Shown here piece by piece: positions 4,506 to 42,945 of a stretch of 64,000 nucleotides of DNA. Below the pieces are notes generated by a model, which was given only the letters and a program-made list of their open reading frames with translations, ran no database searches and was not told the DNA's origin. Numbering within the stretch: the first letter of the stretch is position 1; every line of letters begins with the position of its first letter. This stretch comes from Methanoregula boonei 6A8. GTDB taxonomy: Archaea; Halobacteriota; Methanomicrobia; Methanomicrobiales; Methanospirillaceae. Position numbers and translations under genes: made by a program. The stretch spans positions 62,001 through 126,000 of the forward strand of contig NC_009712.1 in NCBI RefSeq assembly GCF_000017625.1, in the 5' to 3' direction.

Positions 4506-4910
4506 ATGGACAGGATCATAAAATTTGTTATTGCACTGTTAGTGGTTATCGCTGCTGCCAGCGTGGCCTATCTCGTGTTTGCTGCCTCTCCGGCCCCCTC
4601 ATCCTCATCATCAGGTGTAAACGATAGTATTGTCTACTATTTCTATGGCAATGGCTGCCCGCACTGCGCGGCTGTTGAGCCCTTTATGGAAAATATGACC
4701 AAAAAGTATCCCGATGTCGATATCCGGATGCTTGAAGTGTGGTATAACCAGACCAACCAGCAGATCGATGATCAGGTAAATGCAGAGGCTGGTATCACCT
4801 CCCCCCCGGGAGTGCCGGAGATCGTGATCGGGAAGACCGTGCTTGTCGGTGAAGTTGATATCCCGGCCAAGCTCGAAGGGTACCTCCAGGCCATTGAAAA
4901 AAAAAAGTAA
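4506..4910 (+). CDS. Membrane-anchored thioredoxin-fold protein, first half of a split thioredoxin/CcdA protein
   Basis: The 134-residue product has an N-terminal hydrophobic anchor or signal (about residues 5-27), a Ser/Pro linker, and a thioredoxin fold facing outside. Its redox motif is C-P-H-C at residues 51-54 and it has a cis-Pro segment (G-V-P-E-I-V). It ends E-K-K-K-stop exactly within and after a run of ten A residues (4897-4906). In the -1 frame the reading frame stays open past this stop and encodes a second thioredoxin domain and a CcdA-like membrane domain. Slippage or frameshifting at the A-run would therefore give one 495-residue protein; a sequencing error or a real splitting mutation is also possible. 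The likely role is passing reducing equivalents across the membrane. Confidence 0.85.
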   Translation: MDRIIKFVIALLVVIAAASVAYLVFAASPAPSSSSSGVNDSIVYYFYGNGCPHCAAVEPFMENMTKKYPDVDIRMLEVWYNQTNQQIDDQVNAEAGITSPPGVPEIVIGKTVLVGEVDIPAKLEGYLQAIEKKK

Positions 4911-5992
4911 CCCCTGAACCCCTGCCGGAAGGCACATCTCCTGCATCCAAACCCTCCTTTTCTCCTGCCTCGAACCGGCCGGTCACCGGCTATTATTTCT
5001 ATGGTGAGGGGTGCAGCCATTGCGATGCGATAAAACCGTTCATTGCTGACATCCAGTCACGGTACCCGGCGTTCGACCTTGAGCAGCTCGAAGTGTACCA
5101 CAACGCCACCAACCAGGCCTTGTTCCTTTCAATGGATCAGAACCTTGGCATCGCGTCCCCGGGTGTCCCCACTATTATTATCGGGAACCATACACTGGTC
5201 GGGGAAGACCAGATCCGGGACCAGCTGGAACAGGTGATCCTCGCAGAACAGGCCACTTCGGGTGGCCCGGCCCAGGGAAATCTCACCGTGGCGGAGAACA
5301 GTCCCGGCACGTTCTCCCACCTGACCGTCCCCCTGGTAATCGTTGCTGCAGGGATCGACAGCCTCAATCCCTGCGCCTTTACGGTCTTAATTATCCTCCT
5401 GCTCTCCATTATTGCGCTCCAGAGCCGCCGGCAGGTGCTGATAGTGGGCGTCACCTATATCGCCGCGGTTTTTTTGTTCTACTTTATCTCCGGCATTGGG
5501 GTCCTTTCGTTTGTGCACCTTTCGGGGATCTCCAGTCTCATAGCGCTTGCTGCCGCTGTCATCGCCATCGTCCTTGGGGTGGTAAATATTATTGAAGCGG
5601 CGGTGAAAAAAGACGGATTTTTCCTTGCGATCCCCGAATCGAAGAAACCGGTGATTGAGCGGTATATTACAACCGCCACACTGCCTGCCGCATTTGTGCT
5701 TGGCGTCCTTGTGGGGATTTTCGAGTTGCCCTGCACCGGGGGGATCTATCTGACCATCCTTGGCCTGATCAGCAACACCCTCACATTCACCGAGGGAATT
5801 CCTTATCTTCTTCTTTATAATTTAATCTTTGTTCTGCCGCTCATCGTCATCCTTCTCGCTGTTGTCCTGGGTATTCCCCCTGAGCGGGTGAACACCTGGA
5901 GGCTTGAGAACCGCCGGAAGCTCCGGTTTGCCATAGGGGTTGCGATGATCCTTGTCGGTGCCTTTATCCTTATCGGCCCCCGGCTCCTGTAA
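4898..5992 (+). CDS. Second thioredoxin domain plus CcdA/DsbD-type membrane domain (no start codon of its own)
   Basis: The frame opens at 4898, just after a TGA at 4895-4897. It has no ATG, GTG or TTG until a GTG at 5093, which is already past the C-S-H-C redox motif (codons 5012-5023). It therefore needs expression by frameshift or slippage from the upstream A10 run. Order: a Pro/Ser-rich linker, a thioredoxin domain closely resembling the first one (both have Y-Y-F-Y-G before the motif and a Y-N-Q-T-N-Q or H-N-A-T-N-Q segment), then a roughly six-helix membrane domain. Two conserved membrane cysteines, N-P-C (5372-5374) and L-P-C-T-G-G (5732-5734), match the CcdA/DsbD pair that shuttles electrons across the membrane. 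Confidence 0.8.
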   Translation, partial: KKKVTPEPLPEGTSPASKPSFSPASNRPVTGYYFYGEGCSHCDAIKPFIADIQSRYPAFDLEQLEVYHNATNQALFLSMDQNLGIASPGVPTIIIGNHTLVGEDQIRDQLEQVILAEQATSGGPAQGNLTVAENSPGTFSHLTVPLVIVAAGIDSLNPCAFTVLIILLLSIIALQSRRQVLIVGVTYIAAVFLFYFISGIGVLSFVHLSGISSLIALAAAVIAIVLGVVNIIEAAVKKDGFFLAIPESKKPVIERYITTATLPAAFVLGVLVGIFELPCTGGIYLTILGLISNTLTFTEGIPYLLLYNLIFVLPLIVILLAVVLGIPPERVNTWRLENRRKLRFAIGVAMILVGAFILIGPRLL

Positions 5993-19291: not shown

Positions 19292-20280
19292 CACAGAACG
19301 CATACAGCGAGGCCGGGGTCGATATTGATCTCGAAGCAACCGCGATCAAGGCTCTTATCAAAAACCTGACCTACCGCCGGAAAGGCAACTACACGATGCT
19401 TGGTAACGTCGGCCACTTTGCCGGCCTTATCGACTTTGGGCCAAAGGCGCTTGCCCTCACTACCGATGGCGTAGGGACAAAGATGCTCATTGCCGACAAA
19501 CTGGGGGACTGGAGCACGGTCGGAATCGACTGCATTGCGATGAACGTCAACGACCTCTACGTGATGCACATGGAGCCGGTTGCGTTTGTCGATTACATTG
19601 CCACGGACAAGCTCTCGGTGGAGAAGATGGCCCAGATCGGCATTGGCCTCAACGAGGGAGCACGGCAGGCAAACATCGATATCGTGGGCGGGGAGACCGC
19701 CTCGCTTAAGGGCCTTGTAAACGGCCTCGACCTTGCCGGCACCTGTTTTGGTATCCAGGATAAAGGGAAGATCGTGACCGGCGATAAGATCCGGCCCGGC
19801 GACAAGATCGTGGGCGTCCCGTCCACCGGTATCCACAGCAACGGCCTCTCGCTTGCGCGGATGGTGGTGGAGAAGTACGCGGACTACGACGAGAAGATCA
19901 GCACAGGAAAGACGCTTGGGCGCGAACTTTTGACCCCGACCCGGATCTACCATGAAAGCCTGAATGTCGCTGACACCTGCACGGTGCACGGTATGTGCCA
20001 TGTCACGGGCGGGGGACTCTTGAACTTCCTCCGGCTCTCCCGGTACGGGTTTCGGTTCGATACCCTGCTCCAGCCGCCCGCAATCTTTTCCTGGATCCAG
20101 GAGACAGGAAAGATCTCCGATGTGGAGATGTACCGCACCTTCAACATGGGGATGGGGTACGCCTATGTTGTGCCGCCGGCGTCCGTGGATGCGGTGACCG
20201 CTCTTTTGCCCGGTGCACAGGCTGTCGGGGAAGTAACAGAAAAACCCGGTGCATGGCTTGGGAACGTGCAGGTCACTTAA
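19288..20280 (+). CDS. purM: Phosphoribosylformylglycinamidine cyclo-ligase
   Basis: PurM makes aminoimidazole ribotide from FGAM with ATP, the fifth step of purine synthesis. The 330-residue product shows the family segments G-F-A-G-L-I-D-F-G-like (here H-F-A-G-L-I-D-F-G), T-D-G-V-G-T-K and G-V-P-S-T-G-I-H-S-N-G. The start is set at 19288 rather than 19282 because the GGAGG at 19276-19280 gives proper spacing only to the second ATG, which forms an ATGA overlap with the lysC stop. Confidence 0.95.
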   Translation: MTQNAYSEAGVDIDLEATAIKALIKNLTYRRKGNYTMLGNVGHFAGLIDFGPKALALTTDGVGTKMLIADKLGDWSTVGIDCIAMNVNDLYVMHMEPVAFVDYIATDKLSVEKMAQIGIGLNEGARQANIDIVGGETASLKGLVNGLDLAGTCFGIQDKGKIVTGDKIRPGDKIVGVPSTGIHSNGLSLARMVVEKYADYDEKISTGKTLGRELLTPTRIYHESLNVADTCTVHGMCHVTGGGLLNFLRLSRYGFRFDTLLQPPAIFSWIQETGKISDVEMYRTFNMGMGYAYVVPPASVDAVTALLPGAQAVGEVTEKPGAWLGNVQVT

Positions 20281-42728: not shown

Positions 42729-42945
42729 GTGATTCCTTCCACTCCGGAATGGATCTTTTCTTTTTTTAGGTATTTCCCTTTGTTCCCCGGTTTCCGGTCC
42801 TCTCTTGCTGCCGGGGCGCGCTGCTCCTGCCAAGCACCTCGTCATCCGCCGGCTATTTTCAGCGAAAAGATGCAGAGAACGACCCGGTCTCTGTTGTCCG
42901 GGTTCCCGATGTGCCGGGCTGCCCCGGGGTATCTTAAAAAAAAAG

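Follow-up and report, generated by a model that had tools for sequence, protein, structure and literature searches.

Among archaeal cellular genes, a change of reading frame is known or suspected in very few, namely fucA1 and, by inference, the gene for Mg chelatase (PMC8211752); the reported archaeal cases are these and haloviral tail genes (PMC8211752, PMC5009743, PMC3711429). In bacteria, a run length of 9 is associated with slippage (PMC1088944; PMC5009743), and the presence of two Lys tRNAs has been offered as the reason that dnaX of Thermus thermophilus uses it (PMC5009743). Mg-chelatase cassettes containing 7, 9 and 11 A residues gave 10, 40 and 63% frameshift in E. coli (PMC3711429). 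In the open-access papers that were searched, we found no report of productive archaeal transcription slippage, and no earlier report of recoding in the thioredoxin/membrane-carrier family described here.

The window analyzed is a stretch of 64,000 nucleotides from Methanoregula boonei 6A8, the genome under study (G000), which is a single closed contig of 2,542,943 bp. Two overlapping frames in this window meet at a run of ten A residues (Table 1). Frame 0 reads ..ATT GAA AAA AAA AAG TAA across the run, which includes the heptamer A_AAA_AAG, and the stop codon at 4908-4910 follows directly. The -1 frame is closed by a TGA at 4895-4897, continues as AAA AAA AAA GTA ACC, and is then open until the stop at 5990-5992. 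The original prediction held that the first ORF ends at this run, that the second frame has no start codon ahead of its CSHC motif, and that a one-base slip would yield a single protein of 495 residues, and all three points are borne out. The earliest ATG, GTG or TTG in ORF2 is a GTG located downstream of the CSHC codons, and the trans-frame product is 134 + 361 = 495 residues, with the sequence ..KKK-VTPEPLPEGTSPASK at the KKK-V junction. The ORF that begins at this GTG lacks the CSHC motif and any signal, and the codon is not conserved as a start among relatives; it is probably not a real gene start.

Table 1. Features of the two-frame thioredoxin locus, in window positions
Feature	Positions	Strand	Basis or remark
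ORF1: N-terminal membrane anchor and thioredoxin domain 1	4506..4910	+	134 aa, ORF reading
CPHC active-site motif, thioredoxin 1	4656..4667	+	sequence
Putative A10 slippage run	4897-4906	+	sequence; A9/A10 at homologous codons in 19/19 recoded relatives
ORF2, -1 frame: linker, thioredoxin domain 2, putative CcdA/DsbD-like membrane domain	4898..5992	+	
CSHC active-site motif, thioredoxin 2	5012..5023	+	sequence
Start-codon-based ORF call	5093..5992	+	GTG 5093, 299 aa
Polytopic membrane domain, NPC and PC cysteines	5303..5989	+	alignment, CcdA profile match, helical in model

The joined protein would consist of an N-terminal anchor, a thioredoxin domain (CPHC), a short linker, a second thioredoxin domain (CSHC) and a membrane domain that carries the NPC and PC cysteines, which is the order that had been proposed. 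ORF1 scores 24.4 bits against the Pfam Thioredoxin family (cut-off 23.5). The two cysteines of the membrane domain, C159 (codon 5372-5374, NPC) and C279 (codon 5732-5734, PC), are invariant in an alignment of 14 sequences that extends down to 33% identity. This region is helical in the structure model (pLDDT 76.5), and a profile search aligns positions 136-355 of ORF2 with CcdA (5vkv_A, E 3.7e-4). A match to a DsbD subfamily has an E value of 6e-5, yet is far under the cut-off, and that to SfLAP reaches 31.7 bits against a cut-off of 35. Pfam DsbD_TM has no match to the recoded locus; it finds a clear match instead in a second membrane domain of the same genome (L002, G000:C1:1602473-1603105). 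A fold search with the model gave no fold match with E below 1e-3, its best meaningful matches being to the thioredoxin part, and offered no support for the membrane part as a CcdA/DsbD fold. The resemblance of the membrane part to CcdA/DsbD-like carriers is an inference, which neither DsbD_TM nor the fold search confirmed.

On its own, the two-frame geometry could be due to chance, but the comparative evidence assembled from related genomes is well beyond it. Statistics on A runs were collected from 464 kb of the M. boonei genome, comprising the window and 20 other stretches (L148-L167), and just 5 of the 112 A/T runs of at least 9, counted over the two strands, have an approximate two-frame arrangement of this kind. 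Within the window, an A9 at 42936-42944 lies beside a long open frame that is antisense to a minus-strand HEAT-repeat gene, and was rejected as chance; another A9, at 20279, adjoins a stop codon and is closely followed by an ATG. A search of the window with Rfam found one tRNA and nothing else. The longer an A/T run, the less often it lies in coding sequence: the share is 0.63 for runs of 7, 0.40 for 8, 0.34 for 9 and 0.25 for 10, as assessed with a rough ORF caller on stretches that were chosen for containing A9 runs. This depletion of genes from length 8 upward points to selection in M. boonei against runs prone to slippage; bacterial genes, too, contain fewer long slippage-prone A/T runs than expected (PMC1088944).

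Protein relatives of ORF2 are present in 38 of the 39 genomes of the genus, and thioredoxins 1 and 2 are encoded in different frames in 19 of the 39, M. boonei 6A8 included. At all 19 of these recoded loci ORF2 is in the -1 frame, the switch between frames falls at the same codons, and the run there is unbroken, being A9 in 10 genomes and A10 in 9. The stop codon of frame 0 lies 0-5 codons past the run, and the +1 frame is stopped within 25 nt, again at every locus. One genome (G022, L079) was excluded from the junction counts, as there are masked bases near its junction. Another (G035, L016) was counted as recoded, and dropping it changes nothing. In the latter locus (G035:C3), about 25 residues of thioredoxin 1 are missing and ORF2 groups in the tree with genes that have their own start; it may be a chimera or the result of recombination. 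The ORF2 tree scatters the recoded loci over the genus, together with two fusion lineages and one separately started tandem lineage.

Homopolymers are common sites of sequencing error, and a misread run or a recently formed pseudogene could in principle split a frame. An assembly error in one strain would have overturned the original prediction, and is excluded, since the two frames are related in this way in 18 other genomes too. Both domains are conserved in them, with pairwise ORF1 identities among the recoded loci of 29-94%, and the M. boonei contig is closed, which leaves an origin in error or recent decay next to no credence. As the median of these identities is only 45%, most ORF1 comparisons are probably past synonymous saturation.

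The conservation of the run is seen at the codon level. In the ORF1 codon alignment, each of the first two Lys codons has A as its third base at 19 of 19 loci, while nearly all neighboring well-filled third positions vary, even where the encoded Gly, Pro, Leu or Val is invariant. Over the rest of these genes, Lys is encoded 168 times by AAA and 88 times by AAG. With the amino acid sequence fixed, the chance of a run of at least 9 is about 0.3 per genome, and the product over 19 genomes is 2e-10, a value that is overstated owing to their shared ancestry. Moreover, the flanking positions compensate for each other. A codon ending in T or C before the Lys triplet (CTT, ATT or CTC; 5 loci) always goes with AAA as the third Lys codon, and whenever AAG is the third Lys codon (13 loci), the codon before the triplet ends in A. 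The association has a Fisher P of 5e-4, or 0.004 with near relatives thinned by hand. As a result of this compensation the run is always at least 9, never falling to 8 at the 19 recoded loci, so that its length is kept while its codon phase varies. The pattern rests on related rows and carries moderate weight.

A possible alternative is that the run is a switch at the DNA level, with changes in its length toggling the fusion on and off among cells; an A10 within coding sequence is indeed a mutable homopolymer. However, none of the 19 genomes has the two halves in frame with an intact run, all share the -1 relation, and the three in-frame fusions of the genus (G015, G018 and G019) lack a long run, their longest being A7. 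Phase variation is therefore highly improbable in our assessment. One of these fusions (L072, G018:C43) has three thioredoxin domains ahead of the membrane domain, in an open frame of 635 codons.

Relatives that do not require a frame change provide natural controls for the run. None of 13 such thioredoxin 1 relatives reaches A9 (at most A8), compared to A9 or A10 at 19 of 19 recoded loci (Fisher 2.9e-9, ancestry ignored); the 19 recoded genomes are related, and such P values are optimistic. Besides the fusions, these controls include seven stand-alone thioredoxin 1 genes, with a longest run of A7, and three tandem loci at which the second gene has its own ATG and a transmembrane segment, where the sequences are A8, AAAGAAACG and GAGAAACGC. 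Several controls retain a Lys-rich tail (LKK, LKKR), and this suggests that the tail probably came first and the A run was later built on it.

These relatives also bear on whether ORF1 and ORF2 are simply two genes, the second of which begins at a non-standard or downstream codon and is coupled to termination of the first. Separate second genes with their own ATG are found in G006, G008 and G021, and in two genomes of another genus of the same family (G048 and G103) thioredoxin 1 is unlinked from the thioredoxin-membrane gene. In addition, 5 of the 19 recoded loci have some ATG, GTG or TTG before the CxxC motif. However, these codons are at no position common to the genus, and the other 14 loci have no such candidate between the run and CxxC. 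An internal start would also lack the signal or transmembrane segment that is seen in the separately started relatives, and would probably leave thioredoxin 2 on the wrong side of the membrane, as inferred from the absence of a signal. A conserved start for the second half in relatives would have counted against the original prediction. There is none in the recoded set, and the relatives in which the second gene has its own ATG and signal or transmembrane segment have lost the long run. Two separately initiated genes, which would leave the A run unexplained, are very unlikely.

The A9-A10 junction is very probably a conserved recoding site giving two products, a reading for which there are no RNA or protein data. 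That the frame change actually occurs is inferred, in the absence of RNA or peptide data. The comparison with relatives that had been proposed, for a split frame and a conserved A run, supports both the slip on the run and the production of two proteins from one gene. The short form is not soluble-facing as first described, since its N-terminal transmembrane segment makes it membrane-anchored. The unlinked copies in G048 and G103 make the short product plausible as a protein of its own, and the in-frame fusions do the same for the long product. In the long form, a single chain would pass reducing power through the membrane to its two external thioredoxins, and the short form, an anchored external thioredoxin, may be reducible by the long form. 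The redox roles and the topology of both products are inferred.

It is highly likely that one of two processes, transcriptional or ribosomal slippage, operates at this site. We lean, with limited confidence, toward the former, which would place the slip at the RNA level and not on the ribosome, again by inference. RNA polymerase would stutter on the A9-A10 template and produce transcripts with differing numbers of A. Faithful transcripts would encode the 134-residue anchored thioredoxin, terminating just past the run. Transcripts that gained one A (or lost two) would read through from thioredoxin 1 into thioredoxin 2 and the CcdA/DsbD-like domain, and would give the 495-residue electron carrier, both of whose thioredoxins would lie outside the membrane. 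In the remaining frame, translation would terminate within 25 nt.

Programmed -1 ribosomal frameshifting, in which two tRNA-Lys slip jointly on A_AAA_AAG or A_AAA_AAA, would yield both proteins without any variation in the mRNA. A_AAA_AAR is in phase for it at all 19 loci, and there is archaeal precedent, shown for Sulfolobus fucA1 and inferred for Mg chelatase with A_AAA_AAR (both PMC8211752; PMC5009743). The heptamer alone, however, would permit A7 or A8 (for example CTT AAA AAA AAG), which is found at none of the 19 loci, and the compensation between the preceding codon and the third Lys codon preserves length and not the heptamer. The length that is kept would fit a threshold near that of the RNA-DNA hybrid. 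A downstream structure or a Shine-Dalgarno-like stimulator is usual, but not obligatory, for -1 ribosomal frameshifting. At the recoded junctions there was no sign of downstream RNA structure (mean z -0.1 to -0.5) or of a conserved upstream Shine-Dalgarno-like motif. M. boonei encodes both tRNA-Lys UUU and tRNA-Lys CUU (the latter at L110); the dnaX-type condition, in which AAG is read only by tRNA-Lys UUU, is thus not met, and the CUU tRNA should hold AAG in the A site.

Transcriptional slippage is favored on these grounds, namely a run of at least 9 despite its varying phase, the absence of a structure or Shine-Dalgarno-like element, and the presence of both Lys tRNAs. The slip that had been predicted may thus be made by RNA polymerase and not by the ribosome, which the conserved run length favors without proving. 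Run length is not a clean discriminator, because longer A runs also raised the frameshift of Mg chelatase in E. coli. In the absence of RNA and protein data, slippage of the ribosome on A_AAA_AAR cannot be ruled out; we consider it possible, and doubt it.

The locus allows one to test directly whether archaeal gene expression makes use of RNA polymerase slippage. The recoding is kept over the genus, and the natural controls (separate, fused and stand-alone genes) show the purpose of the run. It also illustrates how annotation based on start codons cuts recoded proteins wrongly. With some hesitation, we suggest that this is an archaeal cellular gene dependent on RNA polymerase slippage at a selected A9-A10 run, possibly the first productive case in Archaea and one that is genus-wide.

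Among the described systems, dnaX of T. thermophilus (transcriptional slippage at an A9; PMC5009743, PMC1088944) shares with this locus a coding run of at least 9 over Lys codons, two products that differ at the C terminus, two Lys tRNAs and no need for stimulators. It is a bacterial DNA polymerase gene, and its genomic frame leads to the long product, whereas that of M. boonei leads to the short one. The Mg chelatase genes of bacteria, Methanocaldococcus and Methanococcus are similar in having a conserved A run with A_AAA_AAR, a -1 relation between two adjacent frames, and in-frame fusions in other organisms. However, the protein is unrelated, the cassettes tested had runs of 7-11, and the frameshift was reported as ribosomal. 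Sulfolobus fucA1 likewise lies on an archaeal chromosome and is divided, with a -1 frame, at a slippery poly-A site, but it encodes an unrelated protein and its parts are half-enzymes rather than a domain-complete short product. At the protein level, the closest likeness is to the CcdA/DsbD thiol-electron carriers, in which a conserved NPC..PC cysteine pair in the membrane domain is combined with thioredoxin partner domains. The recoded locus differs from them in being missed by Pfam DsbD_TM, and in having two N-terminal thioredoxins that would be expressed across a frame change.
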